DNA of 62,090 bases from an uncultured Prevotella sp. (GTDB lineage Bacteria > Bacteroidota > Bacteroidia > Bacteroidales > Bacteroidaceae). Below, one piece after another: positions 2 through 18,931 of the stretch. The notes beneath the pieces were generated by a model. That model ran no database searches. It had not been told where the DNA came from and saw only the letters and a list, made by a program, of their open reading frames with translations. The translations under genes were made by a program, and so were the position numbers. The stretch spans positions 1 to 62,090 of the forward strand of contig ONAK01000006.1 of assembly GCA_900315765.1 (NCBI GenBank), given 5' to 3'. Position 1 is the stretch's first letter, and every line of letters starts with the position of its first letter.

Positions 2-502
2 GACGACGAGGTGATCAACTCGTTCTATTACCTCGATCAGTGCATTGGCGATTTCATCCAGAAGCTCCGCAAGAGTGAGGCCTGGAAGAATACCCTCGTG
101 GTGATGCTGCCCGATCACGGCATCCCGCATAACGGCTTAGACGAAACCACATCTCTGCTCAACCACATCCCAATGATATGGGTGGGTGGTGCCGTAAAGG
201 CGCCCCGGAAGATTGAGCAAGTCTGCAATCAAACCGACCTGCCCGCCACCTTATTAGGTCAGTTGGGCGTACCTCACGACGATTTCTCTTTCAGTCGCGA
301 TGTGTTGAGTGCTACTTATACCCATCCTTTCGCCACTCACACCTTCGACAATGGCTTCTCGATGGTTGATAGCGCCAGTTTTGTAAGCTTCGACTTTGTC
401 AGCAACAAGGTCATCGCAGAGGAAGGTAAGAAGAACGAGCAGCTCCTCACAATAGGCAAAGCGATACTCCAGGCTGCCTCAAACGACTTTAAGGGAAGGT
501 GA
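2..502 (+). CDS. LTA synthase-like sulfatase-fold transferase, C-terminal part (5' end outside window)
   Basis: The reading frame is already open at base 2, so only the C-terminal part (about 166 residues) is present. The segment VVMLPDHGIPHNGLDE, with the DHG metal-site motif, and the following IPMIWVGG strand match the end of the alkaline phosphatase/sulfatase fold of LtaS-type phosphoglycerol transferases. It lies 27 bp before a full-length member of the same family, so the two are probably co-transcribed paralogues acting on cell-surface glycans or lipids. The catalytic nucleophile region and the membrane segments are outside the window. The family assignment is fairly sure; the transferred group is unknown. 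Confidence 0.75.
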   Translation, partial: DDEVINSFYYLDQCIGDFIQKLRKSEAWKNTLVVMLPDHGIPHNGLDETTSLLNHIPMIWVGGAVKAPRKIEQVCNQTDLPATLLGQLGVPHDDFSFSRDVLSATYTHPFATHTFDNGFSMVDSASFVSFDFVSNKVIAEEGKKNEQLLTIGKAILQAASNDFKGR

Positions 503-529
503 AACATTAATTAATATATAGAGATAAAA

Positions 530-2449
530 ATGAAAACGTTGAATAATAAGTTATTCTCTCCACTATTGGCCGTGCTATGGAACCTGTTACTTGTCTATCT
601 GGTTTATCAGGTAGCCAGAATAGAGTACTGGTTAGAGAATTCAGATTATCTCAACTACACCTTCGACGTATGGCGCGGGGGATTGATGTTCGACACTTCG
701 GCCATCCTTTACACCAATGCGCTCTATGTGGTGCTGATGCTGTTCCCCTTGCATCTCAAGGAGACAGTCACCTATCACCGCATCTGTAAGTGGGTATTCG
801 TCATCGTCAACGGCTTGGCGCTTTCCATCAATCTGGCCGACTCTGTCTATTTCCGATACACCATGAGGCGCACCACCTCTACGGTCTTCGATGAGTTCTC
901 GAGCGAAGGAAACCTTGGCAGCATCATCGGCACCGAGTTTCTGAGCCATTGGTATCTGGTGGTGCTGTTTGCCCTCCTGATGGTGTTCCTCTGGAAGTGC
1001 TACACCGCGCCCTCTCTCGATGCCAAACTGCTCAACAAGTGGAAGTACGCAGGCGCCTGTCTGTTGTCGCTCATCCTGTTCACCCCCTTCTGCATCGCCG
1101 GCATGCGTGGCGGATTTGCTACGGCCGTACGCCCCATCACCATCTCCAACGCGATGCAATATACCGAGCGCCCCACCGATGCGCCCTTGGTGCTGAACAC
1201 ACCTTTCGCACTGTTGCGCACCATCGACACCAACGTGTTTGTGGTCCCCAACTACTTCGAGAGTGCCACAGAGCTGGAGACTGTTTACTCCCCTATCCAC
1301 ACGCCCTCCGACTCGCTGCAGATGGACAAGAAGAATGTGGTGGTACTGATTGTCGAGAGCTTCGGCCGCGAATATATAGGCGCTCTGAACAAGTCGCTCG
1401 AAGATGGCCAATACAAGGGCTATACCCCCTGTGTCGACTCACTGATCAACAAGAGTACCACCTTCAGCTACTCCTTCTGTAACGGTCGAAAGAGTATCGA
1501 CGGTATGCCCAGCATCCTCAGCAGCATCCCGATGTTCGTAGAACCCTTCATCCTCACCCCTTCGTCCATGAACGACTATACGGGATTGGCAGGCATCTTG
1601 GCTAAGGAGGGATATGAAACAGCTTTCTTCCATGGGGCCCAGAATGGCAGTATGGGCTTTCAGGCCTTTGCTCAGAAGACGGGCTTCCAGCATTATTACG
1701 GACGCACAGAATACGAGGCATCGTGCGGCACCGACGATTTCGATGGCACTTGGGCAATATGGGACGAGCCGTTCCTGCAGTTCTTTGCCAACAAGATGAG
1801 CCAGATGAAGCAGCCGTTTATGACATCCGTCTTTACGGCTTCCAGTCATCATCCATTTGCTATTCCCGAGAAGTACAAGCAGCAGTTCCCAGAAGAGGCG
1901 CTGGAGATACACAAATGTATCCGTTATACCGACCTCTCGATAGGCCGATTCTTTGAAACAGCCAGTCGCCAGCCTTGGTTCAAGAACACCATTTTTGTAC
2001 TGACCAGCGACCATACCAACATGAGTAATCATGCTGAATATCAGACTGATTTAGGTGGTTTCTGCTCACCTATCATCATCTTCGATCCCAGTCGTCCCGA
2101 AGGTCAGATGCTCGATAAGATTGCCCAGCAGATAGACATTCTCCCCACGCTTTTGGGCATGCTCCATTACCCCAAACCCTACTTCGGATTTGGTATCGAC
2201 CTGTTCAGCACCCCGAAAGAAGACACTTGGGCCGTGAACTATCTCAACGGCATCTATCAGTATGTGCGCTATGGCTACGTCCTGCAGTTTGACGGCGCAG
2301 CCACCACAGGTGTCTATCGCCTCGACGACAAACTGATGAAACAAAACCTGAAGGGGAAAGTGGATGTACAACAGCAGATGGAACGCGAGCTGAAAGCTAT
2401 CATCCAGCAGTATATGGAGCGCATGAAGCAAGACCGCCTGCACCCTTAA
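530..2449 (+). CDS. LTA synthase family protein (phosphoglycerol/phosphoethanolamine-type transferase)
   Basis: 639 residues. The first ~220 carry about five hydrophobic membrane segments, and the rest is a periplasmic sulfatase-fold domain. Visible metal-site motifs are LIVESFGREY (Glu276), TASSHHPF and the late TSDHTN. The nucleophile position, Thr after Lys in classical LtaS, reads NGRKSIDG here, so Ser322 follows the Lys. In Gram-negative Bacteroidetes such enzymes are thought to add phosphoglycerol or phosphoethanolamine to surface glycans or LPS. The neighbouring lipid A acyltransferase and phosphonate glycan genes fit that role. Its stop codon overlaps that of the next convergent gene at TTAA (2446-2449). 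The substrate is not known. Confidence 0.85.
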   Translation: MKTLNNKLFSPLLAVLWNLLLVYLVYQVARIEYWLENSDYLNYTFDVWRGGLMFDTSAILYTNALYVVLMLFPLHLKETVTYHRICKWVFVIVNGLALSINLADSVYFRYTMRRTTSTVFDEFSSEGNLGSIIGTEFLSHWYLVVLFALLMVFLWKCYTAPSLDAKLLNKWKYAGACLLSLILFTPFCIAGMRGGFATAVRPITISNAMQYTERPTDAPLVLNTPFALLRTIDTNVFVVPNYFESATELETVYSPIHTPSDSLQMDKKNVVVLIVESFGREYIGALNKSLEDGQYKGYTPCVDSLINKSTTFSYSFCNGRKSIDGMPSILSSIPMFVEPFILTPSSMNDYTGLAGILAKEGYETAFFHGAQNGSMGFQAFAQKTGFQHYYGRTEYEASCGTDDFDGTWAIWDEPFLQFFANKMSQMKQPFMTSVFTASSHHPFAIPEKYKQQFPEEALEIHKCIRYTDLSIGRFFETASRQPWFKNTIFVLTSDHTNMSNHAEYQTDLGGFCSPIIIFDPSRPEGQMLDKIAQQIDILPTLLGMLHYPKPYFGFGIDLFSTPKEDTWAVNYLNGIYQYVRYGYVLQFDGAATTGVYRLDDKLMKQNLKGKVDVQQQMERELKAIIQQYMERMKQDRLHP

Positions 2450-3387
2450 CGGTTGGCGGGATGATCCTTCGCGATTACCTTACCGTCTATCACCTCAAAA
2501 CGCTCATTAAACTCCTCGCGTGTACGACTCCAGCGGTTATGACTCCATAACCACATGTCAGGCGACTGTCGGATGCTCTCTTCCAGCATCTTGAAGTAGA
2601 TATCAGTTATCTCGTAATCCTTCATCTTCTGCGGTTCGCGCGTCATCAGCTTGATTTCGGCCTCATAATAGCCACGCTTTACGCGCCGTATATCCAGGAA
2701 GAACACCGCATAGTTCATCTTGCGCACAATGCGCTCTGTGCCAGTCAGCACGGGGGTATCATGATGCAGAAAGTCCACCCAGTGATGAATGTTCACCCAG
2801 TGGGGCTTCTGGTCAGAGATGAATCCGATGACCACAGGCGTGTTCTTCCGTCGGTATTCCACCACCTTGCGCAAGGTATCCTGCATCGGGATACACTCTG
2901 CCCCTAATCTTTGGCGCAGGCGCAGGAAAAGCTTATCTATCGCCTTGTTCTCGATGGGGTGATAAATCTGTCCGCAATGCGCTTCGGGCGTAATCCAGAG
3001 GGGCAATGATGTCACCCATTCCCAGTTACACAAATGCCCCAGATATATGGCGCACGACTGTCCGTCGCGTATCGCTTCCTCCAACTGTTCTGTGCCCTTG
3101 AACTTCATGCGCTTCATCATGTTCTTCTTGCTGATTGTCATCAGCTTCACCGACTCCACCAGATAGTCGCAGAAGAAGTGATAGAATCCCTGCTCAATAC
3201 GCCTCAGTTCCGCCTCATCTTTCTCTGGGAAAGACTCCTTCAGATTCTTTCTCACCACCTTTTTGCGATACTGCATCAGACGGTAGACCAACAGGTAAAG
3301 AAAGTATGAGTTCACGTAATGTATTCTCATGGGCAGAAGTGAGAACACATACCAGAACGAAAGAATAACATAATACAATAATTTCAT
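2446..3387 (-). CDS. Lysophospholipid/lipid A acyltransferase (LpxL/HtrB family)
   Basis: 313 residues from the ATG at 3387; an in-frame upstream start would lie on the promoter. An N-terminal membrane anchor (FWYVFSLLPM region) is followed by the acyltransferase H-x4-E motif as HLCNWE (His118, Glu123). The family transfers a secondary acyl chain to lipid A from acyl-ACP at the inner membrane. It is divergent from pepM, with a TATCTTTG promoter at 3409-3416, and convergent with the LtaS-like gene. Placement between LtaS-like and phosphonate genes suggests a wider LPS-building region. Acyl chain specificity cannot be read from sequence. Confidence 0.85.
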   Translation of the reverse strand: MKLLYYVILSFWYVFSLLPMRIHYVNSYFLYLLVYRLMQYRKKVVRKNLKESFPEKDEAELRRIEQGFYHFFCDYLVESVKLMTISKKNMMKRMKFKGTEQLEEAIRDGQSCAIYLGHLCNWEWVTSLPLWITPEAHCGQIYHPIENKAIDKLFLRLRQRLGAECIPMQDTLRKVVEYRRKNTPVVIGFISDQKPHWVNIHHWVDFLHHDTPVLTGTERIVRKMNYAVFFLDIRRVKRGYYEAEIKLMTREPQKMKDYEITDIYFKMLEESIRQSPDMWLWSHNRWSRTREEFNERFEVIDGKVIAKDHPANR

Positions 3388-3408
3388 ATTTCGTAGGAAT
3401 TCCAAATG

Positions 3409-3416
3409 CAAAGATA
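3409..3416 (-). promoter_or_regulatory. Bacteroidetes -7 box (TATCTTTG) for the acyltransferase gene
   Basis: TATCTTTG on the minus strand, about 20 bp upstream of the chosen ATG at 3387. It matches TAnnTTTG. Confidence 0.6.
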
Positions 3417-3478
3417 GCTATTTAGCAGCACATATGCAAATAAAAATTAAAAAAATTGCTCATATGCCGATATTTCAG

Positions 3479-3486
3479 TACCTTTG
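3479..3486 (+). promoter_or_regulatory. Bacteroidetes -7 box (TACCTTTG) for the phosphonate/glycan operon
   Basis: TACCTTTG, with a TTG at 3456-3458 and a 20-bp spacer. The pepM ATG begins only 4 bases after the box, so the mRNA may be leaderless or nearly so. Confidence 0.7.
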
Positions 3487-3490
3487 CAAT

Positions 3491-4792
3491 ATGAATAAGA
3501 GAGTATATCTGGGCATGATAGGTGATATTATGCATCCCGGTTTGATAAACATCATCCATGAAGGAGCAAAATATGGTGAAGTGATGATAGGTCTTTTCAC
3601 TGACAAAGCCATTGCCGCCCATCAGCGCCTTCCTTACATGACTTACGATCAGCGTAAAAACGTTATCGAGAATATCAAAGGCGTGAGCGAGATTGTTCCG
3701 CAAGACGAGTGGAGCTATGTGCCAAACTTGTTGAAATACCGTCCTGATTACATCATACATGGCGACGACTGGTGCGAGGGAGTTGACTCCGAACTGCGCC
3801 AGCAGGTTTTCGACACCATGGAGCAGATAGGTGGCAAGGTCATCGAGATTCCTTACACCAAAGGCATCAATTCTTCTTCGCTCGATAAGGAGATCAAGAA
3901 AATAGGCACCACTCCCGATATCCGTCTGAGAGCCCTGCGCCGCCTGATTGCCGCCAAGCCCATTGTGCGCATCCTGGAGGTTCACGACGGTCTCAGCGGT
4001 TTGATTGTCGAGAATCTTGAAACCGAAAGGGGCACTAGCAAGGTGGCCTTCGACGGCATGTGGTCGAGCTCACTGACCGATTCCACCTCGAAAGGTAAGC
4101 CCGACATCGAGGCTGTCGATTTGACAACCCGCATGCAGGACCTGAACAACATTCTCGAGTGTACCACCAAGCCTATCATCTACGATGGCGACACAGGCGG
4201 CAAGCCCGAGCACTTTGTCTTCACCGTGAGAACGCTGGAGCGTAACGGCATCTCTGCGGTGATTATCGAAGATAAGATTGGTCTCAAGAAGAACTCCCTC
4301 TTCGGCACCGAAGCCATTCAGACGCAGGACACCATCGAGGGTTTCTGCCATAAGATCAGAATGGGCAAGGAAGCCCAGATTACCAAAGACTTCATGATTA
4401 TCGCCCGCTGCGAGAGTCTCATCGCCGGCAAGGATGTTGCCGATGCTCTGCAGCGCTGTCTGGCTTATGTCGATGCAGGAGCCGATGGCATCATGATTCA
4501 CTCTAAGGAGAAGACGGGCGAAGATATCAAGGCCTTCTGTCAGGCCTTCCGCCAGCATCATCCCGCAGTGCCCATCGTGGTGGTACCCACCACCTATAAC
4601 CACATCAAGGAGAGCGAGCTGGCAGAATGGGGCGTCAATGTGGTGATCTACGCCAACCACATGCTGCGTGCAGCCTATCCGGCCATGATGAAGTGCGCCG
4701 AGAGTATTCTGCAGAACGAGCGCTCATTAGAGGCAAACCCACTGTGTATGCCTATCAAGGAGATATTAGAATTAATACCGGGAACAAAATAA
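3491..4792 (+). CDS. pepM: Phosphoenolpyruvate mutase with N-terminal nucleotidyltransferase-like domain
   Basis: 433 residues from the ATG at 3491, just behind the promoter. Residues ~1-140 resemble a cytidylyltransferase-like Rossmann domain, but the HxGH motif reads HPGL (His15), so the second His is missing; a GINSSS stretch near 125-130 recalls the ISSS motif. Residues ~150-430 are the isocitrate-lyase-like mutase with the diagnostic EDK-x5-NS motif (EDKIGLKKNS, 260-269). It converts phosphoenolpyruvate to phosphonopyruvate, the entry step of C-P bond biosynthesis. It is first in a tightly packed operon; its stop overlaps the ppd start by one base. The function of the N-terminal domain is uncertain. 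Confidence 0.95.
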   Translation: MNKRVYLGMIGDIMHPGLINIIHEGAKYGEVMIGLFTDKAIAAHQRLPYMTYDQRKNVIENIKGVSEIVPQDEWSYVPNLLKYRPDYIIHGDDWCEGVDSELRQQVFDTMEQIGGKVIEIPYTKGINSSSLDKEIKKIGTTPDIRLRALRRLIAAKPIVRILEVHDGLSGLIVENLETERGTSKVAFDGMWSSSLTDSTSKGKPDIEAVDLTTRMQDLNNILECTTKPIIYDGDTGGKPEHFVFTVRTLERNGISAVIIEDKIGLKKNSLFGTEAIQTQDTIEGFCHKIRMGKEAQITKDFMIIARCESLIAGKDVADALQRCLAYVDAGADGIMIHSKEKTGEDIKAFCQAFRQHHPAVPIVVVPTTYNHIKESELAEWGVNVVIYANHMLRAAYPAMMKCAESILQNERSLEANPLCMPIKEILELIPGTK

Positions 4793-5919
4793 TGATACGT
4801 GCATCTTTTTTCTATCAGGAGCTGGCAGCTTACGGCATCAACTTCTACACAGGTGTGCCCGATTCTTTGCTGAAGAATCTCTGCGCCTATGTCACCGACC
4901 ATGCAGCCAACCATATCATCGCAGCCAACGAAGGCGGCGCCATGGGTATCGCAGCTGGTCATTACCTTGCCACAGGTCAGATTCCTGTTGTGTATATGCA
5001 GAATTCAGGCGAGGGCAATATCATCAATCCGTTGGCCTCGCTCGTCGATAAGGAAGTGTATAACATCCCCGTTCTTTTAGTGATTGGCTGGCGCGGCAAG
5101 CCTGGTGTTCACGACGAGCCCCAGCATGTAAAACAGGGCAAGGTAACCCTCTCTCTCTTAGAGACGATGGGCATTCCTTATACCGTTCTTTCCAAAGAAG
5201 AAACCGAGGCCAGCCTTCAGATCAAGCAGGCTGTCGAGTCGATGCAGCAGTCGAAGGAGTGCTACGCACTGATCATCGAGAAGGACACCTTCGAGCCCTA
5301 CCAGCTGTCATCGGTCACCGCCCATCCTGAGCTGTCGCTGTCGCGAGAAGAAGCCATCGGCATCGTTGCTTCCGCCATCGGTCCTAAAGATGTGATTGTA
5401 TCCACTACCGGTATGATCAGTCGCGAGCTCTTTGAGTACCGCACCCGTAACCATCAGGGCCACGAGCGCGATTTCCTCACCGTAGGTTCTATGGGCCACG
5501 CCTCTCAGATTGCCTTGGGCATCGCTTTAGAGAAGCGCGACCGCCGCGTATGGTGTTTCGATGGCGATGGTGCTGCCATCATGCACTTAGGTGGGTTGGC
5601 TATTGTAGGTAGCAAGGCGCCTGATAACTATATCCACGTGGTGTTTAATAATGGGGCTCACGATAGTGTGGGCGGTCAGCCTACAGTGGGGTTGGATATC
5701 GACTTGCCCACCATCGCCAAAGCCGCCGGCTACAAGCAGGCGGTGAGTGTTTCCTCTAAGGAGGAATTGGAGAGAGCCCTCTCACCTTCTCACCTTCTCA
5801 CCTTTTCACCTTTACTCTTGGAAGTAAGAGTACAGAAGGGTAATCGCAAGGACTTGGGGCGGCCTACTACCACACCGATTGAGAACAAGGAAGCCCTCAT
5901 GGATTTTTTAAAGCAATAA
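4792..5919 (+). CDS. ppd: Phosphonopyruvate decarboxylase
   Basis: 375 residues; the ATG overlaps the pepM stop (TAATG). It is a thiamine-diphosphate enzyme with N-terminal pyrimidine-binding domain (catalytic Glu47 in ANEGGA) and C-terminal TPP motif GDGAAIMH (258-265) closing with NN at 286-287. It decarboxylates phosphonopyruvate to phosphonoacetaldehyde, the irreversible step that pulls the mutase reaction forward. Residues ~331-342 (SPSHLLTFSPLL) are encoded by a short tandem repeat (5781-5813) and probably form an insert in a surface loop before the last strand. Function is well supported by motif and by neighbours. Confidence 0.95.
   Translation: MIRASFFYQELAAYGINFYTGVPDSLLKNLCAYVTDHAANHIIAANEGGAMGIAAGHYLATGQIPVVYMQNSGEGNIINPLASLVDKEVYNIPVLLVIGWRGKPGVHDEPQHVKQGKVTLSLLETMGIPYTVLSKEETEASLQIKQAVESMQQSKECYALIIEKDTFEPYQLSSVTAHPELSLSREEAIGIVASAIGPKDVIVSTTGMISRELFEYRTRNHQGHERDFLTVGSMGHASQIALGIALEKRDRRVWCFDGDGAAIMHLGGLAIVGSKAPDNYIHVVFNNGAHDSVGGQPTVGLDIDLPTIAKAAGYKQAVSVSSKEELERALSPSHLLTFSPLLLEVRVQKGNRKDLGRPTTTPIENKEALMDFLKQ
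5781..5813 (+). repeat. Short tandem repeat (TCACCTTC/TCACCTTT units) inside ppd
   Basis: About four consecutive 8-bp units of TCACCTTC/TCACCTTT. It is read in frame within ppd and encodes SPSHLLTFSPLL. The same unit type recurs at 12041 and 16294, and more weakly near 60195. Confidence 0.8.
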
Positions 5920-5923
5920 AGAC

Positions 5924-7057
5924 ATGGAATCACTCACTATCAAACGAAACATACTACTGAATCCTGGTCCCGCCACTACCACCGATACGGTGAAACTGGC
6001 ACAAGTGGTACCTGATATCTGTCCACGCGAACAGGATTTTGCCAGGCTCATGAAGCAGCTGCGTTCAGACCTTCTGAAGGTGGTTCATGCGCCCGAAGAC
6101 CAATATACATCTGTGCTGTTCTGCGGCTCAGGAACCATCAACATCGATATCTGCATCAACTCGCTGGTACCCGAAGGCAAGAAGATTCTGGTTGTCAACA
6201 ACGGTGCCTATAACACCCGCGCCGTCGAGGTTTGTCAGATGTACCATATTCCCCACATCAACCTCCAGTCGAGCGTGTACGAGCAGCCTGATCTTTCGGC
6301 CGTAGAGCAGGCGCTGAAGGATAATCCCGATGTGGCAGTGGTTTATTGCTGTCACCACGAGACGGGCACAGGCGTTCTGAACCCCATCCGCGAGATAGGT
6401 GCCCTGGCCCATCAGTATGGTGCCATCTTCATCACCGACACCACGTCAACCTTGGGCATGATTCCCCTCGATGTGGTCGAGGACAACGTCGATTTCTGCA
6501 TGGCGTCCGCCCAGAAGGGACTGATGGCCATGTCGGGCTTGTCGTTTATCATTGGTCGCGAGGATATCATCAAGGCGTCGAAGCACTACCCCACCCGCTC
6601 TTATTACTGCAATCTGTATCTGCAGTACGAGTACTTCGAAAAGACGGGCGAGATGCATTTCACCCCTCCTGTCCAGACCATCTATGCCACCATTCAGGCA
6701 CTGAAGGAGTATTTTGCTGAAGGCGAGACCGCCAAGTTCGCGCGCCATCGCCGTGTTTACGAAGCCATTCATCAGGGTCTCGACGCCTTAGGCTTCCAGA
6801 CCGCCATCGACCGCCGCATCGAGTCCGGACTGGTGGTATCGGTGAAATACCCCGACGACCCCAACTGGAGCTTTGAGCAGATTCACGATTACTGCTACGA
6901 GCGCGGCTTCACCATCTATCCCGGCAAGATTTCTACCACTAACACCTTCCGTTTGTGTGCCTTAGGCGCCATCGACGTCAAGGATATCCAGGACTTCTTT
7001 GTGGTCCTGAAAGCAGCACTGACTCATTACCATATCAAGTTAGTTTATCATGCTTAG
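5924..7057 (+). CDS. phnW: 2-aminoethylphosphonate aminotransferase (PhnW type)
   Basis: 377 residues, 4 bp after ppd. Class V PLP aminotransferase: GSGTINIDI phosphate-binding loop near 68, HHETGTG at 144-150, and SAQKGLMAMSG with the likely PLP lysine Lys198. PhnW interconverts AEP and phosphonoacetaldehyde. Downstream of PepM and Ppd, with no phosphonatase or C-P lyase nearby, the expected direction is AEP synthesis. The gene overlaps the following nucleotidyltransferase gene by 8 bp, which suggests translational coupling. Confidence 0.93.
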   Translation: MESLTIKRNILLNPGPATTTDTVKLAQVVPDICPREQDFARLMKQLRSDLLKVVHAPEDQYTSVLFCGSGTINIDICINSLVPEGKKILVVNNGAYNTRAVEVCQMYHIPHINLQSSVYEQPDLSAVEQALKDNPDVAVVYCCHHETGTGVLNPIREIGALAHQYGAIFITDTTSTLGMIPLDVVEDNVDFCMASAQKGLMAMSGLSFIIGREDIIKASKHYPTRSYYCNLYLQYEYFEKTGEMHFTPPVQTIYATIQALKEYFAEGETAKFARHRRVYEAIHQGLDALGFQTAIDRRIESGLVVSVKYPDDPNWSFEQIHDYCYERGFTIYPGKISTTNTFRLCALGAIDVKDIQDFFVVLKAALTHYHIKLVYHA

Positions 7058-7781
7058 AAAAGTAACTACAGCCATCATCATGGCAGCTGGTATGGGCACC
7101 CGCTTCGGCCATAAGACCGACGATATGCCCAAGGGCTTTATCGAGGTGGGCGGCGTTCCCATGATCGAGCGCTCGGTGCAGACGCTGATTGATTGCGGCA
7201 TCACGCGCATCATCATTGGCGTGGGCTATCATCAGGAGGCCTATCGCCACCTGCAGCAACGGTTTCCCCAGATAGAGTGTGTCGAGAATCCCATCTATGC
7301 CGACACCAACAGCATGTACACCCTGTACTGCTGTCGCACGGCGTTGGCGCCCGATGAGGACTTCCTGTTGCTCGAGAGCGACCTGGTTTTCGAGCATCGC
7401 GCCATCGAGGCCCTGATGACGTGCGAGCAACCCGATGTGATGCTCATCACGCCCGTCACCAAGTTCCAGGACCAGTATTATGTAGAGAGCGACAGCCACC
7501 ACATCCTCACGCGCTGCTCTGTCAATCAGGATGAGCTGCAGGCCAAAGGCGAGTTGGTGGGTATTCATAAGCTGTCGGCTCCGTTCTTCGCCAAGATGGC
7601 TGCCGACTACGAGCGCCAGCTGCCCCTCAACCGCAAGTTGGGCTACGAGTACCAGCTGCTCCACATGTCGCAATCGGGCAGTCCCGTCTACGTGCTTTGT
7701 GAAGAAGGGTTGGCCTGGTACGAGATCGACGACGAGCAAGACCTCGCCTACGCAGAAAAGAATATCATCAATCGCATTTAG
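7050..7781 (+). CDS. Sugar/choline-type nucleotidyltransferase, probable CTP:AEP cytidylyltransferase (PntC-like)
   Basis: 243 residues with the N-terminal signature AAGMGTRFG (12-20) and MPKGF with Lys28, typical of the LicC-like phosphocholine cytidylyltransferase family. In phosphonate loci, proteins of this kind activate AEP to CMP-AEP. Its position between phnW and licD, with overlap to phnW, makes AEP the best candidate substrate over phosphocholine, because no choline kinase or choline importer is seen. The activity is inferred from context; the fold assignment is firm. Confidence 0.85.
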   Translation: MLRKVTTAIIMAAGMGTRFGHKTDDMPKGFIEVGGVPMIERSVQTLIDCGITRIIIGVGYHQEAYRHLQQRFPQIECVENPIYADTNSMYTLYCCRTALAPDEDFLLLESDLVFEHRAIEALMTCEQPDVMLITPVTKFQDQYYVESDSHHILTRCSVNQDELQAKGELVGIHKLSAPFFAKMAADYERQLPLNRKLGYEYQLLHMSQSGSPVYVLCEEGLAWYEIDDEQDLAYAEKNIINRI

Positions 7782-7784
7782 CTT

Positions 7785-8615
7785 ATGCCAGCATATAGTA
7801 TCAAAGAATTACAACAGCACATCATCCCCATCCTTCTGGATGTCGACCGTGTGTGCCGCGAACACAATATCCGTTGCTACATCTGCGACGGCACCATGCT
7901 GGGCGCCGTCCGTCATGGCGGTTTCATTCCCTGGGACGACGACATCGATGTCTGCATGCCTCGCCCCGACTACGAGCGCTTCATGCAGCACGCCAAGGAG
8001 TGGTTGCCCCCACATCTGGAGGCCATCTGTGCCGAGAACGACGCAGACTACCCCTTCCCCTTTGGCAAGATTCAAGACAACACCACCACGCTGATAGAGC
8101 GCATGCACATCGACTATATGGGCGGCCTCTATATCGATGTATTCCCCATCGACGGCATGCCCCAGAGCAAGCTGCTGCAGGAGCTTCAGCTGTGGCGCTA
8201 CGAGTACTACAAGAAGGTGCTGTACTTCCTGCATCGCGACCCCTACAAGCATGGTCGCGGTCCCAGCTCATGGATTCCGCTGCTCTGTCGCAAGCTCTAT
8301 TCGCGCACCCGTCTGCAGCAGAAGATCAAGCGCCTCATGTGCAAGTACGATTACGAGCAGTCGCCCATGACCGTGAATTTCGACGATGGTCATCGTGGTG
8401 TCATGTCCAAGGAGCTCTACGGCGCGCCTACGCCTATCCGCTTCGAGGGCAAGGAGGTGATGGGTGTAGCCCATCCTCACGAGTACCTCACCTGCACCTA
8501 TGGCGAGTATATGGTCATCCCCAAGCAGGAGCACCAGCGCACCCACAACTTCCAGTATCTCGACTACCATCTTCCCTACAGAGAGTATACTGATAACCGC
8601 ACATTCGTCAGATAA
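7785..8615 (+). CDS. licD: LicD family phospho-/phosphono-transferase
   Basis: 276 residues, 3 bp after the cytidylyltransferase. The core motif is GTMLGAVRHGGFIPWDDDID (36-55), with the metal-binding aspartates of the nucleotidyltransferase-like LicD fold. LicD enzymes move phosphocholine from CDP-choline to surface glycans. Here the likely donor is CMP-AEP, which would give a glycan bearing aminoethylphosphonate. The acceptor is probably the glycan made by the following glycosyltransferase genes. The family is certain; donor and acceptor are inferred. Confidence 0.92.
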   Translation: MPAYSIKELQQHIIPILLDVDRVCREHNIRCYICDGTMLGAVRHGGFIPWDDDIDVCMPRPDYERFMQHAKEWLPPHLEAICAENDADYPFPFGKIQDNTTTLIERMHIDYMGGLYIDVFPIDGMPQSKLLQELQLWRYEYYKKVLYFLHRDPYKHGRGPSSWIPLLCRKLYSRTRLQQKIKRLMCKYDYEQSPMTVNFDDGHRGVMSKELYGAPTPIRFEGKEVMGVAHPHEYLTCTYGEYMVIPKQEHQRTHNFQYLDYHLPYREYTDNRTFVR

Positions 8616-8617
8616 TC

Positions 8618-9625
8618 ATGAATCGCAAGCTATACTATCTGTTCCACAGCGGCAAGAACTGCAAGTTCCTCTACTACCTCCGGAGTTATCTTCGCGAGGC
8701 AACACCCCGCTGGTTCACGCAGATACAACTGAAGCCGTTGCTGACCAAGCTCGACAGCCGTGCCGACAAGGATTATATCCTGGAGCGTGTCGACTATTAC
8801 AACAAGCTCACGCCCACCTCGCCCATCGATGCCACCCTGTGGAACGAGCGGGCCGTAGAGGTGTGCAAGCAGCCCATGACCAATCAGTCTACCTACTATC
8901 ACGATGCGATGGAGATAGCGCGCTATTTCAGCGGCCATCTCAAGTGGGTGCTGCGCCATGGCGACATCGTCACCCTGCTGCCTCTGCCCACCATCCTCAA
9001 GAGCCGTCCGCTGGGCAACGACAATCAGAATTCCGTGATTCTCAAGCTCGATAAAGTGCGCCATTTCCTGTTCGTCAACGATACCAGGTCGTGGCGCGAC
9101 AAGAAGGATATGGCCATCTTCCGGGGCGATATCGGAAACGAGGCTAATGGCGACAACAAGCCCAACCGCCGTGTATTTATGACCCTCTGGAAGGATCACC
9201 CGATGGTTGATGCCGCCTCGACCGATTTGGTGAGCGACCACCCCGAGTGGCGCCAGGAGAAGCTCACCATCGGCGAGCATCTCGACTATAAGTTCATCAT
9301 GTCGCTCGAGGGCAACGATGTCGCCTCCAACCTCAAGTGGGTGATGTCGTCCAACTCCATTGCCGTCACCCCTCGCCCCACCTGCGAGACCTGGTTCATG
9401 GAGGGCAAGCTCATCCCCAACTACCATTACATCGAGGTGAAGCCCGACTTCTCCGACCTTGAGGAGCGCCTGCAGTATTACATTGCCCACCCTGTCGAGG
9501 CCGAGGCCATCATCCAGCATGCCCACGAGTATGTCAGTCAGTTCCGCGACAAAGCGCGTGAGCAGCTCATATCGCTCCTGGTGCTGAAGAAGTATTTTGA
9601 AATCACAAACAAGGTAGAGCTATGA
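8618..9625 (+). CDS. Glycosyltransferase family 90 (CAP10/LPS-modifying type)
   Basis: 335 residues. Features of the CAP10/GT90 domain are FRGD at 168-171, the SLEGNDVASNLKW stretch at 229-241 (shared by LpsA-like and fungal CAP10 enzymes), and a C-terminal helical tail. The family transfers xylose, glucose or galactose residues to capsule or LPS inner-core sugars. It starts 2 bp after licD, and its TGA overlaps the next start (ATGA), so it is in the same operon. Sugar donor unknown. Confidence 0.85.
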   Translation: MNRKLYYLFHSGKNCKFLYYLRSYLREATPRWFTQIQLKPLLTKLDSRADKDYILERVDYYNKLTPTSPIDATLWNERAVEVCKQPMTNQSTYYHDAMEIARYFSGHLKWVLRHGDIVTLLPLPTILKSRPLGNDNQNSVILKLDKVRHFLFVNDTRSWRDKKDMAIFRGDIGNEANGDNKPNRRVFMTLWKDHPMVDAASTDLVSDHPEWRQEKLTIGEHLDYKFIMSLEGNDVASNLKWVMSSNSIAVTPRPTCETWFMEGKLIPNYHYIEVKPDFSDLEERLQYYIAHPVEAEAIIQHAHEYVSQFRDKAREQLISLLVLKKYFEITNKVEL

Positions 9626-10455
9626 TATTTGCCAGAGATAAGAGTCAGATGTGCAACAACCTGCTGCAGTACGCCCACGTCTATGCATGGGGCCGCGAGC
9701 ATGGCAGGAAGGTCATCTCCATGCGCTTCAGCTATAAGTATCAGTATTTCCACATCTGCCATACCAGTCTCACGGGTTTTGGCTGGTATCTGTTTGCCAA
9801 GTATATGGCTGCGCTCAAGCTGCTGCCCACGGCCAGCTTCAAGCATAGCGACTGCGACCGCGCCGCCTTAGAGCGCAAGATGCTCCGCCACAAGCACATC
9901 GTAGTGAGCGGCTGGAATGTCCGTTTCTACGATCTCTTTCTGAAGTACAGAAAAGAGATTTGCGAATTGTTCACTTTAGATGAGCAATACACCGCCCCCG
10001 TGAAGGCCAAAATGCCCCCCTCTGTCATGTCGAGCGCAGTCGAGACATCTCTTGCCCTCGGCGTACACATACGCCGGGGAGACTACGCCCAATGGCAGAA
10101 CGGCCAGTATTACTTCGACGATGCCGTATATGCAGCACATATCAACCGCTTCGCCGAGCTCCACCCTGGCAAGACCATCCACGTCTTCCTCTCGACCAAC
10201 GACAGTCAGGTCTCGGCCGAAGCCTACCAGCAATCCTGCCCCAAGGTAGTTATCCACCACTTCAAGGGCAGCGCCCCCGAAGACCTCTTCATGCTCTCCG
10301 AGTGCGACTACCTCATAGGTCCTCCCAGCACCTTCTCGCTCGTAGCCGCCATGTACCGCGATATTCCTTTATACCGCATGGACGTGGCCGACGAGCAGCA
10401 GATGACACCCGAGAGTTTCCGTTTGTTCGACTATTGGTTCAGAAGAATCCTTTAA
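9622..10455 (+). CDS. Glycosyltransferase family 11-like (alpha-1,2-fucosyltransferase type)
   Basis: 277 residues, overlapping GT90 by 4 bp. The nucleotide-sugar motif HIRRGDY (149-155) is the hallmark of GT11 alpha-1,2-fucosyltransferases; FLSTNDSQ and the later CDYLIGPPSTFS region also fit. It probably adds fucose or a related deoxyhexose to the AEP-bearing glycan. Residues 134-144 (SVMSSAVETSL), just before the motif, are encoded by a 31-bp palindromic repeat (10023-10053) that also occurs in another glycosyltransferase at 16318. It is a small in-frame insert that keeps the gene open. Confidence 0.85.
   Translation: MIFARDKSQMCNNLLQYAHVYAWGREHGRKVISMRFSYKYQYFHICHTSLTGFGWYLFAKYMAALKLLPTASFKHSDCDRAALERKMLRHKHIVVSGWNVRFYDLFLKYRKEICELFTLDEQYTAPVKAKMPPSVMSSAVETSLALGVHIRRGDYAQWQNGQYYFDDAVYAAHINRFAELHPGKTIHVFLSTNDSQVSAEAYQQSCPKVVIHHFKGSAPEDLFMLSECDYLIGPPSTFSLVAAMYRDIPLYRMDVADEQQMTPESFRLFDYWFRRIL
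10023..10053 (+). repeat. 31-bp palindromic interspersed element, copy 1 (inside GT11)
   Basis: Arms ATGTC (10027-10031) and GACAT (10044-10048) flank the 12-base core GAGCGCAGTCGA, with TGTC before and CTCTT after. Copy 2 at 16318-16348 has 28 of 31 bases identical. Two of the three differences are paired arm positions that keep base pairing. Confidence 0.85.
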
Positions 10456-10458
10456 GCT

Positions 10459-11313
10459 ATGTCACAATTACGCAAAATCAGATACCGTCTGTTTTCATGG
10501 CGCCACTTCCCGCCATTACAGGCCTCACCACAAGAGATTGATGTGGTCATCCCCATTGTATCCAAGGATCTGCACATCCTGCCTTTATGCCTCGAGGGTG
10601 TTCGCCAGCAGGTGGCCCACCCCATCAAGGACATCTATATTGTAGCCCCTGCCCAGGAAGACATCATCCGTTTTTGCGAGCAACACCAGTTGCATTTTGT
10701 AGAAGAGAGCTCCGTGTTAGGCTTCTCGCCTCGCGATCTGAACATCGTGATACAGAATCCCGACGGCACCACGCGCAACCGCAGCGGCTGGCTCTTCCAG
10801 CAGCTCATCAAACTCAGCGGCAAGGTAGGCACCTGCCAACATTACCTCTGCATCGATGCCGACCATGTGTTGATTCGTCCGCATGTGTTCCTCACGGCCG
10901 ACGACAAGACCGTGTTCTACATGAGCTACGAGGAGCATACACCCTATTACGAGAATATCCACCAGCTGATGCCTGGTCTGCCCTTAGACACGCTGTCGTA
11001 TGTCGACCATAAGATGCTGTTCGACAAAGCGCAGCTCCAGCAGCTTCATCAGGCCTTGACTCAGTCAGCCGACGGCACTTGGATCGACACCATCCTCCGC
11101 CACTACGACCGCACCAGCTTTGCCGGTTTCTCCGAGTTCGAGCTCTACGGCAATTTTGTGCAGCACAAGGAGCGCCGCCCCTGGTTGCAGAAGCGCCTGT
11201 CTTACAGTCATATCGCCGATTATGCCACCTTGCAGCGCAAGTGGAGCCGCAGCCGCTGGTCGCTCACCTTCCCCGAGTACATGCGCCAGAATCACAAGTC
11301 AACGGACTTGTAA
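10459..11313 (+). CDS. DUF6492 family protein, probable glycosyltransferase
   Basis: 284 residues, 3 bp after the GT11 gene. It opens with a basic stretch, then a GT-A like start (IDVVIPIVSKD) and a DADH sequence in CIDADHVLIRP that matches a DxD metal site. This fits DUF6492, which is regarded as glycosyltransferase-like. It is the last gene of the plus-strand phosphonate/glycan run and overlaps the end of the convergent GT87-SUMF1 gene by 15 bp. Substrate unknown. Confidence 0.75.
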   Translation: MSQLRKIRYRLFSWRHFPPLQASPQEIDVVIPIVSKDLHILPLCLEGVRQQVAHPIKDIYIVAPAQEDIIRFCEQHQLHFVEESSVLGFSPRDLNIVIQNPDGTTRNRSGWLFQQLIKLSGKVGTCQHYLCIDADHVLIRPHVFLTADDKTVFYMSYEEHTPYYENIHQLMPGLPLDTLSYVDHKMLFDKAQLQQLHQALTQSADGTWIDTILRHYDRTSFAGFSEFELYGNFVQHKERRPWLQKRLSYSHIADYATLQRKWSRSRWSLTFPEYMRQNHKSTDL

Positions 11314-13194
11314 CACCAGTCTCAGTCCCACGTGCTTAAACCTCCTTCGCTGGTCGTACATAAACCTGTTTGTCACCCTGCAGTATCTGGGATTACAATC
11401 GTAAGCCCCGCCGCGTATCACGTGGAAATTGCCCGAAGGTTTGCTTTCAGGCGTTTTCTGGTACCAGTCTTCGCACCATTCCCACACGTTACCGCTCATA
11501 TCATAGAGTCCTAACTCGTTCGGCTTCAGCAGCCCCACCTGCTCATGCGCATCCTGCGGGTTGTTCTGTAGCGTGTGCGCCACCTCGTCTATGTTGTTGC
11601 TGCCCGCATACAGATAGCCCTTCGACTTTCTGCCGCCCTTGGCAGCATACTCCCATTCAGCCTCGGTAGGCAGTCGGAAGTGCTTGCCCGTCATGGCGTT
11701 GAGCTTGGCTATAAACGCCTGACACATCTCGTAGGTCACGTATTCCACAGGCCGCTTGGCGCCGCTCTTCTTCGATGGGTTCTCGTGCATCACGGCCTCC
11801 CACAGCTCCTGCGTCACCTCCGTCTCACCTATAAAATAGTCGTCCACCTTCACGCGGTGCCTCCCTTCGTCGGCATCAGCCAGCGTGTCGCCCGCCAGCG
11901 CTCCCATCGTGAAGCTTCCCCCTTCCACAAATCTCATTTTGAAGGTAGCCCCATTAATATAATAGGTACGCGTTACGTTCCATCTATTCTGCGCCCCAAC
12001 CCCCATCGGCATCAGGAGCAGCATCAAAAGCAAAAACCCTTTCACCTTTTCACCTTTCAACTTTCCACTATTCACTATTCCCTGTTCACTATTCACTGGT
12101 CCTACTGCCCACCATATCATCCGCAGCCAGCAGAAGAAGTAAGTATACACATCCAGCCAGAATGTCTCATGCACATATCTGTGAATCCACGCCGGACAGA
12201 GCACGTCTGTTGGCAGAATGCAGAAGTTCACCACCAGCAGCCAGAACAGCGTCCAGTCTATCCATGTGCGCTGTTCGCGCAACCAGAAGGCCATCGCGTA
12301 GAAAGGCAGGGCGATGATATACGTATGCGTCTCCGGACAGTCGCTGAACATAATCATAAAACCCGTCAGCACCCCCAGCGCCTGCACTCTGAAGCTCAGC
12401 AGTCCCCAGCGCTTGTATCTGGCGAAGAAAGCCACCGCCAACAGGGCGAACACCACCACCTGCACCAGTCGGTAGTTGGGCAGCAGCAGCGGTTTCAGTC
12501 CGCGTGCAAACAGAATCCCCACAAAGTCGGTATCACTATGGTGACTCGCAATCATGTCGAACATCTGCTGATAGAGCACAAACACATTGTCGAAGTTCGT
12601 GTTCACTGCAGGCAACAGCAGGAAGAACGCCCCCCACAGTATCGCATAGCCGAAGTTACGCCACATTTTGGGGTAGCACAACAGAATGGCCAGCTCCGCC
12701 GCCCCATACACTTTCGTAGTAGCCGAGAGCATGATGAGCGCCACCGCCCAGAACCCCTTGCCCCGCTCCAGCAGGATAAAGGCAAAGATATAGATATACG
12801 CCACGATGATGTTATGCTGGTAGCAGAACACCGTCTGCAGCACCACCGACAGCAGGAATAGGAATATCCAGTGCTTGTATTTCTCCAGCTGTTGCGGCAG
12901 CATCTTGATGGCCAGCGCAAACAGGCTGTAGTTGCAGATGTTCCACACAAACGGCCCCAACCACCACGGCAGCATGAATATCGGCGCGAAGACCACGCTG
13001 AACACTGGCGAGTAGAGGAAGTAGATGTTGTGCGCCTGCGCATATTCCAGGTTATAAGGCGACAGCCCCTCCCAGAACATCCGCGTAGAGTCCTGGTAGT
13101 CGAAATAGTTGGTATTGCGCCCGCGCATCACCTCAATCCATGTGGCCAGCAGCACCACCACCAGTCCCAACACAAACAGCCCTTTCTTCTTCAT
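11299..13194 (-). CDS. GT87-like membrane mannosyltransferase fused to a SUMF1/FGE-type domain
   Basis: 631-residue continuous frame. Residues 1-365 have about ten hydrophobic segments and look like a GT87 (DUF2029) polyprenyl-sugar-dependent glycosyltransferase. Residues ~367-385 are encoded by short tandem repeats (12041-12097). Residues 386-402 (KGFLLLMLLLMPMGVGAQ) look like a signal peptide inside the protein. Residues ~405-631 are a formylglycine-generating-enzyme-like domain (FVEGGSFTMG, RLPTEAEWEYA, SGNVWEWCEDW, VIRGGAYDCNPRYCRV). A GTG at 12045 preceded by AAAGG could start the SUMF1 part separately. Probably two former genes joined through a repeat. It follows the rffA-like gene by 6 bp. 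Confidence 0.8.
   Translation of the reverse strand: MKKKGLFVLGLVVVLLATWIEVMRGRNTNYFDYQDSTRMFWEGLSPYNLEYAQAHNIYFLYSPVFSVVFAPIFMLPWWLGPFVWNICNYSLFALAIKMLPQQLEKYKHWIFLFLLSVVLQTVFCYQHNIIVAYIYIFAFILLERGKGFWAVALIMLSATTKVYGAAELAILLCYPKMWRNFGYAILWGAFFLLLPAVNTNFDNVFVLYQQMFDMIASHHSDTDFVGILFARGLKPLLLPNYRLVQVVVFALLAVAFFARYKRWGLLSFRVQALGVLTGFMIMFSDCPETHTYIIALPFYAMAFWLREQRTWIDWTLFWLLVVNFCILPTDVLCPAWIHRYVHETFWLDVYTYFFCWLRMIWWAVGPVNSEQGIVNSGKLKGEKVKGFLLLMLLLMPMGVGAQNRWNVTRTYYINGATFKMRFVEGGSFTMGALAGDTLADADEGRHRVKVDDYFIGETEVTQELWEAVMHENPSKKSGAKRPVEYVTYEMCQAFIAKLNAMTGKHFRLPTEAEWEYAAKGGRKSKGYLYAGSNNIDEVAHTLQNNPQDAHEQVGLLKPNELGLYDMSGNVWEWCEDWYQKTPESKPSGNFHVIRGGAYDCNPRYCRVTNRFMYDQRRRFKHVGLRLVLQVR
12041..12097 (+). 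repeat. Tandem heptamer/octamer repeat bridging GT87 and SUMF1 coding parts
   Basis: TTCACCTT units run into TTCACTAT-type units over 57 bp. On the minus strand the frame is open and encodes the linker ending VNSGKLKGEKVKG. It also supplies an AAAGG sequence before a GTG at 12045. Confidence 0.85.
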
Positions 13195-13200
13195 GGTGTC

Positions 13201-14319
13201 TTATTTAAACCTTTTAATCAGTTTCGTTATCAGCTCAATATCCTCGTCCTTCAGTTCGTAGAATAGCGGCAGCCTCACCAGCGTGTCGCCATAGCGGTCG
13301 CAGTTGACCAGCACCCTGCCGTCGTGCTTGTCCCGATAGTAGGCACTCGCATGCAGCGGCAGATAGTGGAACGTGGCCTGCACCCCGTTGTTCTTCAGAT
13401 AGTTGATCAGCGCCGTACGCTGCTCCAGACTCTCACACAGCAGATAGTACATGTGATAGTTGTTAGTAGCATACGCGGGCAGTTCGGGCCTTGTGATGCC
13501 CTTTGGCAACTTGCCTTTCAGCGCCTGGTCGTAGCTCTCCCAGATGTGCTTGCGCTTGCCCTGAATATCGTCTATCTGCTCCAGCTGCGCCCATAGGAAG
13601 GCCGCATTCAGCTCCGAAGGCAGAAACGACGACCCCGTGTCGCACCAGCCGTATTTGTTCACCATGCCGCGATAGAACTCCGCGCGGTTGGTACCTTTCT
13701 CCCACAGTATTTCCGATCGGCGCACAAATCGCTCGTCGTTCACCACCAGCATGCCCCCTTCGCCACAATTGATGTTCTTGGTCTCGTGGAATGAGAACGC
13801 CGCCAGATGGCCGATACCTCCCAGCGGTCTGCCTTTGTAGTACGAGTCGATGCTGTGCGCTGCATCCTCCACCACCAACAGGTGGTGCTTCTCGGCCAGC
13901 GCCATGATGGCGTCCATATCGCAGGCCACGCCCGCATAGTGCACCACCACTATCACCCGCGTCTTCTCGTTTATCAGCGGCTCTATGTTCTCCGCAGTCA
14001 CGTTCGGGTTGTCAGCCCCACTGTCGGCAAATCGGATGACCGCCCCTTCGCGGATAAACGCGATGGCCGACGACACAAACGTGTACGACGGCACTATCAC
14101 CTCGTCGCCCGCCTGCAGGTTGCACAGCATGGCGCACATCTCCAGCGCATCCGTTCCCGATGTACAGAGCAGACACTTGCGGAATCCGTAGTGTTTCTCA
14201 AAGAATCCGTGACACAGTTTGGTAAAATCGCCGTTACCCGACATGGTTGTCGAGTGGCACACCTCTTGTATATAGCTCAGTTCTCTGCCCGAGCAGTATG
14301 GTTTATTAAATGGAATCAT
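13201..14319 (-). CDS. rffA: dTDP-4-amino-4,6-dideoxygalactose transaminase-like aminotransferase
   Basis: 372 residues, close in pattern to WecE/RffA over the whole length: MIPFNKP start, GDEVIVPSYTFVSSA, VHYAGVACDMD, VVEDAAH (Asp152), SFHETKN with PLP lysine Lys181, and EKGTNRAEFYRG. DegT/DnrJ/EryC1 enzymes transfer an amino group from glutamate to a nucleotide-linked 4-keto-6-deoxysugar. This one should yield TDP-Fuc4N for a surface glycan. It is middle of a minus-strand run (GT2, rffA, GT87-SUMF1) with 4-6 bp gaps. The rml genes for the donor sugar are not in the window. Confidence 0.9.
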   Translation of the reverse strand: MIPFNKPYCSGRELSYIQEVCHSTTMSGNGDFTKLCHGFFEKHYGFRKCLLCTSGTDALEMCAMLCNLQAGDEVIVPSYTFVSSAIAFIREGAVIRFADSGADNPNVTAENIEPLINEKTRVIVVVHYAGVACDMDAIMALAEKHHLLVVEDAAHSIDSYYKGRPLGGIGHLAAFSFHETKNINCGEGGMLVVNDERFVRRSEILWEKGTNRAEFYRGMVNKYGWCDTGSSFLPSELNAAFLWAQLEQIDDIQGKRKHIWESYDQALKGKLPKGITRPELPAYATNNYHMYYLLCESLEQRTALINYLKNNGVQATFHYLPLHASAYYRDKHDGRVLVNCDRYGDTLVRLPLFYELKDEDIELITKLIKRFK

Positions 14320-14323
14320 ACGT

Positions 14324-15244: not shown

Positions 15245-15266
15245 AATAACAAATAGTAATTCTTTG

Positions 15267-15274
15267 CAAAGATA
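15267..15274 (-). promoter_or_regulatory. Bacteroidetes -7 box (TATCTTTG) for the GT2-rffA-GT87 operon
   Basis: TATCTTTG on the minus strand, 22 bp before the GT2 start. It is part of a divergent promoter pair with 15327-15334. Confidence 0.65.
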
Positions 15275-15326
15275 CAAACATTTTTTGTTTTTCAGCAATT
15301 TTTCGCCTATTTTCGTTTTTTTTGTT

Positions 15327-15334
15327 TAACTTTG
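15327..15334 (+). promoter_or_regulatory. Bacteroidetes -7 box (TAACTTTG) for the gtrA-GT4 operon
   Basis: TAACTTTG, 18 bp before the ATG at 15353. It lies in a T-rich divergent promoter region. Confidence 0.65.
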
Positions 15335-15352
15335 CAATCAAAATCACTGTCG

Positions 15353-15742
15353 ATGCAACAAAAGAGAGAAACACTTGGCCAGATCATGCGGTTTGGAGTA
15401 GTGGGTGCCATATCCACGGCGCTCCACCTGTCCATCTATTGGCTGCTGCAGCATTTCATCCATGTCAACATCGCCTATTCCGTGGGCTATTTCCTGAGTT
15501 TTCTGGCCAACTACTACCTCTCAGCCCGCTTCACGTTCCATCAGCGCACCTCGGCCCGCAACGGAGCCGGCTTTGCAGGCGCCCACATCTTCAACTATTT
15601 TCTGCAGTTGGGCCTGTTCAATGCCTTCCTGTGGTTAGGCGTCCACCGTCTGCTCGCCCCTTTGGCTGTGCTCATGATAGCCGTGCCCACCAATTTCGTC
15701 ATCGTGCGCTTTGTATTTAAACACTTCTCTAAAAAGTCATGA
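15353..15742 (+). CDS. GtrA-like flippase family membrane protein
   Basis: 129 residues with four hydrophobic segments and the GtrA pattern FGVVGAISTALHLSIYWLL near the start, plus FLANYYLSARFTF. GtrA proteins are thought to flip undecaprenyl-phosphate-linked sugar across the inner membrane for glycan decoration. The divergent GT2 gene is the likely partner. The ATG at 15353 is preferred to an upstream TTG lying inside the promoter. Its end overlaps the GT4 start by 4 bp (ATGA). Confidence 0.88.
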   Translation: MQQKRETLGQIMRFGVVGAISTALHLSIYWLLQHFIHVNIAYSVGYFLSFLANYYLSARFTFHQRTSARNGAGFAGAHIFNYFLQLGLFNAFLWLGVHRLLAPLAVLMIAVPTNFVIVRFVFKHFSKKS

Positions 15743-18800: not shown

Positions 18801-18931
18801 AGGTTTATGCTTTCTTTTCCAGCTTGCAAAAATAGTACTTTTTTCTATAACCTCCAAGCAATTACACAAAAAAAACAAAACTGAGTTAGATATTTTTTCT
18901 CATTTGCTTCATAACGTTAATTACCATCTTT

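Follow-up and report, generated by a model that had tools for sequence, protein, structure and literature searches.

A predicted pnt operon for 2-aminoethylphosphonate in the lipopolysaccharide core region of a Prevotella-like rumen bacterium

The sequence analysed here, hereafter the window, is a 62,090-nucleotide stretch from an uncultured Prevotella sp. (ONAK01000006.1; contig C78 of a 3.4 Mb source genome), in which eight plus-strand genes form one run at 3491–11313, in the order pepM, ppd, phnW, pntC, licD, GT90, GT11-like and DUF6492. Neighbouring genes overlap by 1 to 8 bases or are separated by gaps of at most 4, bearing out the tight packing described in an earlier note on this DNA, all the named features of which (EDKIGLKKNS, GDGAA, Lys198, DDDID, GT90, GT11 and DUF6492) are present on the plus strand. 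The PepM is 99% identical to those of three uncultured Prevotella records (L035, L036, L037), which, going by their isolate names, we take to be rumen genomes. The locus is a real and complete phosphonate tailoring operon of an ordinary, known type. We read it, with a probability of approximately 0.7, as a pnt operon in the lipopolysaccharide (LPS) core region of a Prevotella-like rumen bacterium, in which 2-aminoethylphosphonate (AEP) would be made, activated with cytidine monophosphate (CMP) by PntC and moved by LicD to a core sugar, the cytidylyltransferase (CyTase) domain fused to PepM probably not being the activating enzyme.

Three genes account for the predicted synthesis of AEP, and their products all exceed the corresponding NCBIfam equivalog cut-offs. 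PepM (3491–4792; 433 residues; TIGR02320, 422 bits against a cut-off of 320), with the EDKIGLKKNS motif at residue 260, would convert phosphoenolpyruvate to phosphonopyruvate; a mechanical open reading frame (ORF) call for this gene opens earlier, at 3434. Ppd (4792–5919; TIGR03297, 513 bits against 312.5), with GDGAA at residue 258, is predicted to decarboxylate phosphonopyruvate to phosphonoacetaldehyde, which PhnW, also named AepZ (5924–7057; TIGR03301, 477 bits against 361), with its Lys198, would transaminate to AEP. Homology and context both support the route to AEP that had been proposed for these genes.

PntC (7050–7781; 243 residues) is a predicted CTP:AEP cytidylyltransferase with an NTP_transf_3 domain (PF12804), which carries the GxG(T/S)R...PK pattern (GMGTR at residue 14, Lys28) and would join AEP to CMP. 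Amongst solved structures its best match is Treponema denticola PntC (6PD1; E=2e-44, 155 bits), followed by Streptococcus pneumoniae LicC (1jyk; 1e-15, 61 bits). R18, K28, E109 and E200 align with R15, K25, E104 and E196 of the T. denticola enzyme; passages of PMC6697681 (Rice et al.) locate Glu104 and Glu196 close to the amine of AEP and give Asp as the LicC counterpart, including at the Glu109 position. That position is Glu in 47/47 PntC-like sequences and Asp in 14/14 nucleotidyltransferases of a different LicD-associated module, defined by a HisC-like enzyme (see below), whilst the Glu200 position is Glu in both sets except for one gap. CMP activation by an enzyme of PntC type, rather than LicC type, is supported by these residues and by the 6PD1 match, which lies far above that to LicC. 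A LicC assignment, by which the operon would add phosphocholine, draws on the relatedness of LicC and PntC and on the rank of 1jyk as second-best solved match; we rejected it as very improbable, since pepM, ppd and phnW share the operon, the two match scores differ as described and Glu109 and Glu200 are of AEP type. Further, of the 17 proteins that were scanned (positions 11–18878), none was recognised as a choline kinase.

The remaining genes of the run are candidates for transfer and for assembly of the acceptor. LicD (7785–8615; PF04991, 1e-44, 153.6 bits against a cut-off of 22.6), with DDDID at residue 51, is predicted to move the AEP group from CMP to a core-oligosaccharide sugar, which the GT90 glycosyltransferase (8618–9625; PF05686, 8e-14, above the Pfam cut-off), the GT11-like glycosyltransferase (9622–10455; PF01531, 5e-7, weakly above cut-off at 29.8 against 23.9 bits) and the DUF6492 protein (10459–11313; PF20102, 4e-10, above the Pfam cut-off; perhaps glycosyltransferase-like) may help to build. 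The position of the operon makes the LPS core the most likely target. An LpxL/HtrB-like lipid A acyltransferase gene (lpxL; 2446–3411, minus strand; PF03279, 6e-36) starts approximately 80 bases from pepM and diverges from it; lpxL is mostly single copy, 54 of 60 genus genomes giving a match and two of these a second one. Association with lpxL recurs in other pnt clusters: L041 has the co-directional order pepM, ppd, pntC, phnW, licD, lpxL, GT11-like; the pnt genes of L108 follow lpxL and, ahead of it, a heptosyltransferase-like gene of family GT9, all in one orientation; and in L207 and L208 lpxL comes ahead of ppd. Overall, lpxL is found within 6 kb in 7/44 AEP-type clusters (L036–L038, L040, L041, L083, L108), compared with 0/30 reductase-type clusters.

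The neighbours of lpxL elsewhere in the genus overlap with those in the window. Amongst 18 stretches around lpxL fetched from genus genomes, homologues of GT90 and the GT11-like protein occur together in six (L172–L174, L176–L178), five of which also encode a DUF6492 homologue (both counts made by hand), and LicD stands beside lpxL in several (e.g. L178–L180, L185). Sixteen of these genomes were searched whole, of which 15 lack PepM and one (G936, stretch L173) has it on another contig; of the remaining two, G246 (L188) has PepM on another contig and G150 has none. PepM is found in 2/22 genus genomes of a sample of 301 genomes from the family. In other members of the genus (e.g. G890, G936, G891) the contig with lpxL also encodes DegT homologues of 74–85% identity. 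Since GT90, GT11-like, DUF6492 and LicD homologues adjoin lpxL in genomes that mostly lack PepM, it seems that the glycosyltransferases (and LicD in several genomes) form the resident set and that the phosphonate genes were added to it.

These contexts also bear on the choice between LPS and capsule, which the earlier note had left open; its surface-glycan assignment is supported, and LPS is favoured because lpxL adjoins the operon, lpxL and heptosyltransferase-like genes neighbour some other pnt clusters, and GT90, GT11 and DUF6492 homologues occupy the lpxL region of genus genomes without pepM. It is unlikely, on balance, that CMP-AEP is made but LicD decorates the repeat unit of a capsule or exopolysaccharide, even though passages of PMC6697681 report AEP on the capsular polysaccharide of Bacteroides fragilis and many AEP-type clusters lie among GT2/GT4 genes: no flippase or polymerase was recognised by a Pfam scan limited to the 17 proteins at 11–18878, and homologues of the flanking GT90, GT11, DUF6492, GT87 and DegT genes recur in varying sets in genus lpxL regions, mostly without pepM.

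Two side observations concern these regions. A class V aminotransferase gene lies beside a fusion of a TagD-like cytidylyltransferase with a Gfo/Idh/MocA oxidoreductase in L126 (9795–12213; contig C37 of the window's own genome), L186 (13018–15438), L187 (14734–17151) and L189 (15644–18100), the three genus loci being a few kb from lpxL; the aminotransferase is PhnW-like (below cut-off in L186, the sole one scanned), and the pair probably makes a CDP-linked compound. A permease-like gene (assigned by eye) occurs in or beside pnt clusters in L108 (11876–13324), L207 (5054–6517), L208 (4333–5787) and L205 (9357–10826), standing between ppd and pntC in L108 and L208.

The earlier note named the window's PepM but missed its N-terminal CyTase domain (3503–3904; PF01467, 9e-10), which aligns without gaps over 134 residues to the CyTase chain of Fom1 (5x3d; E=1e-43). 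Fom1 makes CMP-hydroxyethylphosphonate according to passages of PMC6697681. In the window the HxGH motif of this domain reads HPGL (residues 15–18; bases 3533–3544), with the first histidine kept and the second replaced by leucine. Passages of PMC6060094 call both histidines critical in the HxGH superfamily. As the second is lost and a separate PntC would fill this role, the fused domain is probably not the activator here. The domain is not decaying: in relatives with Leu or Ile at this position (54 rows, described below) the first histidine, Asp34, Arg77, His112, Gly113, Asp115 and Trp116 (Fom1 numbering) are kept in 54/54, and the loss of His40 goes together with Trp96 in 54/54 and His66 in 50/54, the window counterparts being Trp74 and His44 in place of Leu and Tyr. 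The domain would therefore be either a non-catalytic part that has been kept or an active site that has been rebuilt. The latter case, in which the fused CyTase still works and PntC adds a second activating enzyme of perhaps different specificity, would account for the retention of the domain, with its HGxDW segment, and for the His66 and Trp96 changes in step with the loss of His40. We nevertheless consider it doubtful, given the importance ascribed to both histidines and the presence of a separate PntC in 32/34 family genomes of the HxGL type, which would make a second activator superfluous.

The relatives suggest that loss of the catalytic residue tracks the kind of phosphonate produced. 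The comparison set comprised 102 distinct PepM sequences, taken from named records and from further genomes, excluding that of the window but including the near-copies L035–L037; the duplicates L080 and L164 were dropped, as were L068 and L073's second PepM-like gene, neither of which has the EDK motif. Ninety-nine rows were scored at the second HxGH position, L162, L163 and L171 being left unscored for want of a CyTase domain and L048 being scored as His by hand although its first motif position is masked. Leu or Ile occupies the position in 54 rows and His in 45. The partner enzyme is PhnW in 37 of the Leu/Ile rows and a reductase in one (16 unassigned), and an iron-containing alcohol dehydrogenase (Fe-ADH) in 30 of the His rows and PhnW in six (nine unassigned). 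L073 was kept out of this pathway table, its nearby Fe-ADH being assigned to its second PepM-like gene, with the contig ending 420 bases on. Nine His clusters were sampled, and in each an Fe-ADH (PF00465) is encoded next after ppd; of six scanned against NCBIfam none passes a cut-off, and TIGR03405 (Phn_Fe-ADH) is among the top three matches of each.

PntC was scored as present near PepM above 200 bits and within 8 kb, with flanks of at least 5 kb; the matches in L156 and L158–L160 (163–173 bits, 7.7 kb off) thus count as absent. In 35 loci besides the window, an HxG[L/I] PepM has both PhnW and PntC no more than 8 kb away, and so the gene content of the operon exceeds chance. In the 301 family genomes, with PntC called genome-wide at E≤1e-40 and the cross-table made by hand, 50 carry a PepM above cut-off (34 HxGL, 16 HxGH), and PntC accompanies 32/34 of the former against 0/16 of the latter; in 13 of these 16, PepM is fused to a divergent NTP_transf_3 domain whose score falls short of the PntC threshold. 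The two HxGL genomes without PntC are G269 and G248, the latter being 77% complete with its pepM at the end of a contig, and PntC occurs without PepM in 3/35 genomes (G006, G034, G060; counted by hand). Fisher values for HxGH state against PntC or pathway are tiny, although the rows are related.

Exceptions to a rule based on this histidine exist in both directions. HxGH is combined with PhnW in six rows, L062, L064 and, from other Bacteroidota families, L156, L158, L159 and L160; HxGL is combined with a reductase in L067; and L075 and L210 are HxGL without PhnW, reductase or PntC, but with another nucleotidyltransferase-like gene. In L098, L100, L101, L102 and L109 PntC is present with no PhnW within 8 kb, and in L089 and L090 pepM is separated, the remaining genes being on another contig (L203, L204). 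The clusters of L075 (3686–8487) and L210 (9586–14357) consist of HxGL PepM and Ppd followed by phosphoesterase-like, epimerase-like and different nucleotidyltransferase-like genes (named by eye), and possibly make a third phosphonate product.

Domain fusions vary amongst the relatives. Fourteen proteins of 666–679 residues (L091, L106, L110, L112–L114, L117–L123, L168) are NTP_transf_3–CyTase–PepM triple fusions with HSGH or HFGH intact and an Fe-ADH nearby in all except L117, which is near a contig end; the NTP_transf_3 part has GxGHR or GxGQR, and no GxG(T/S)R...PK, in 13/14. In L115 (7227–8684) and L116 (10053–11534) a radical-SAM-looking ORF (CxxxCxxC, by eye) is fused to an HPGH-intact cytidylyltransferase domain, beside PepM.

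Several observations weigh against our interpretation of the window. Firstly, Lys153 of T. denticola PntC, which is required for full activity there, is replaced by Val158 in the window (phmmer alignment). The position is Lys in 5/47 PntC-like relatives, Thr in 31 and Val in 10, and passages of PMC6697681 term Lys153 partially conserved; we therefore do not take it as defining pnt membership. Secondly, lpxL is absent from the 6 kb around 37 of the 44 AEP-type clusters, so LPS is not a general rule, and three of the seven clusters that do have it there (L036–L038) repeat the window's own arrangement. Thirdly, the association of the histidine with pathway rests on three to four tree changes: on the PepM tree there are 4 changes of His state (3 if L067 is omitted), giving two or three supported independent pairs, of which approximately two are in the expected direction; these are too few for a pairwise sign test to attain 0.05.

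Finally, the nearest relatives of LicD come from genomes without PntC. The best ten non-self LicD matches in the family sample (57–60% identity; compared by hand) are all in such genomes, so LicD alone does not prove an AEP donor; all ten genomes carry the HisC-like enzyme, in eight of them within 3 kb of licD. These matches could mean that LicD and the glycosyltransferases form a separate phosphate-ester system, with the phosphonate genes beside it by chance and AEP going to lipid or elsewhere. We regard this as improbable: pntC and licD are spaced by 3 bases on one strand, many other clusters also have licD close to pepM, pntC and phnW, and not always in the same order, and the HisC-like gene that goes with the nearest LicD relatives was not found in the window's own genome. 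Transfer onto a surface glycan by LicD is thus favoured by homology and context, whereas a LicD specific for AEP is not, in view of the ten relatives. An AEP-dedicated LicD subfamily was likewise refuted by a 53-row tree, in which AEP-associated, HisC-associated and other rows interleave with weak backbone support.

The HisC-like module itself suggests what the phosphonate genes may have replaced. In the fetched loci the HisC-like enzyme, encoded for instance at 6591–7646 of L191, is accompanied by a small NTP transferase, the 14 distinct sequences of which are those with Asp at the Glu109 position. The HisC-like enzyme presumably shares the aminotransferase fold of Campylobacter jejuni Cj1436. 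Passages of PMC12409886 describe Cj1436 as producing ethanolamine phosphate from phosphoserine by decarboxylation. If the HisC-like enzyme acts in the same way, then the relatives would add phosphoethanolamine and the window's genome its phosphonate analogue, via the same LicD family; the sequences hint at the exchange of a phosphate-ester head group for its phosphonate counterpart. PntC and the HisC-like module occur in 35 and 39 of 301 genomes and together in one (G181), which is a tendency to exclude one another but does not establish it (p=0.06); an HxGL PepM is found together with a HisC-like gene in G181, G248 and G936.

Taken together, these comparisons allow a broader proposal, which we put forward tentatively and at slightly less than even odds, that one residue reports the pathway. 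In clusters that reduce phosphonoacetaldehyde, the CyTase domain of PepM would have HxGH and be active as a hydroxyethylphosphonate cytidylyltransferase; in those that transaminate it to AEP and leave activation to a separate PntC, the domain would be catalytically silenced or rebuilt, with HxG[L/I], Trp96 and, mostly, His66. In the Prevotella LPS region the AEP set would be a drop-in, hydrolysis-resistant substitute for a phosphoethanolamine-type set (HisC-like enzyme and Asp-type cytidylyltransferase) feeding the same LicD family. Were the HxGH rule true, some PF01467 domains of PepM clusters that now count as nucleotidyltransferases would not carry out the activation, and one residue would help to predict AEP or hydroxyethylphosphonate clusters from sequence. 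It is the replacement of His by Leu and the exchange of modules that merit further study.

The gene combination is not new, because passages of PMC6697681 describe the pnt pathway, including clusters with both fused and separate nucleotidyltransferases. As in the window, the pnt loci of T. denticola (fused PntC–AEP transaminase Tde1415; 6PD1/6PD2) and Atopobium rimae (Ari1348) are described there with PepM, Ppd, an AEP transaminase and a LicC-like PntC activating AEP, with LicD-like or glycosyltransferase genes close by and PepM-fused and separate nucleotidyltransferases in one cluster; by contrast, PntC and PhnW are separate proteins in the window, Lys153 is Val and the locus lies in an lpxL region. 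The Treponema PepM loci compared, which come from metagenome-assembled genomes (MAGs), share the Leu/Ile change. The AEP-bearing capsular polysaccharide of B. fragilis, compared by its description in passages of PMC6697681, shares with the window the phylum, the predicted product and a PntC homologue (Bfr-PntC), although the window's neighbours indicate LPS core. Fom1, of fosfomycin biosynthesis, has the same two-domain architecture as the window's PepM (CyTase identity 51–52% for the near-identical relatives L036 and L037), but is HPGH and makes CMP-hydroxyethylphosphonate, whereas the window has HPGL and, in the cluster, PhnW instead of a reductase. The Lic pathway (LicA–LicC–LicD; phosphocholine) shares the logic of CMP activation followed by LicD, but here the activated group would be a phosphonate made de novo. 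CyTase–PepM clusters with an Fe-ADH, e.g. in Bacteroidales and Ignavibacteria MAGs, have PepM, Ppd and the fused CyTase in common with the window, and differ in their intact HxGH, in having a reductase rather than PhnW and in lacking a PntC above 200 bits within 8 kb, save for the divergent PepM-fused domain; their product is probably hydroxyethylphosphonate. Surface phosphonates are the predicted main product of bacterial phosphonate genes, and the steps beyond CMP activation are not known, according to passages of PMC6697681. The window adds, from a rumen genus, a compact operon that offers candidates both for the transferase (LicD) and for the acceptor (LPS core). Amongst the literature matches listed, from which subscription journals were mostly outside scope, no paper dealt with the HxGH change or with AEP in Prevotella LPS.

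A single promoter may serve all eight genes. TANNTTTGC boxes, which we take to be promoter boxes of the Bacteroidetes -7 type, number 22 in the whole window against 7.7 expected, approximately three times as common as in shuffles (0/100 of which reach as many), and several lie just 5′ of gene starts. One such box, TACCTTTGC, stands just 5′ of pepM (3479–3487, plus strand; motif scan), and another, TATCTTTGC, at the start of lpxL (3408–3416, minus strand; motif scan); on the plus strand the next box after that of pepM occurs only at 15327. A scan for sigma-70 promoters and terminators returned nothing above chance.

Beyond lpxL and the operon, the region encodes a sulfatase-fold membrane protein of LtaS/OpgB-like phosphotransferase type (530–2449, plus strand; PF00884, 5e-36; best NCBIfam match LtaS, 4e-23, below cut-off) and a DegT/DnrJ aminotransferase of the same surface-glycan region (13201–14319, minus strand; PF01041, 3e-81). 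Between the latter and the operon, and convergent with it, lies a gene (11299–13194, minus strand) in which a GT87 membrane glycosyltransferase (PF09594) is joined in frame to an FGE-sulfatase domain (PF03781); homologues of similar length are present in L172, L173 and L177.

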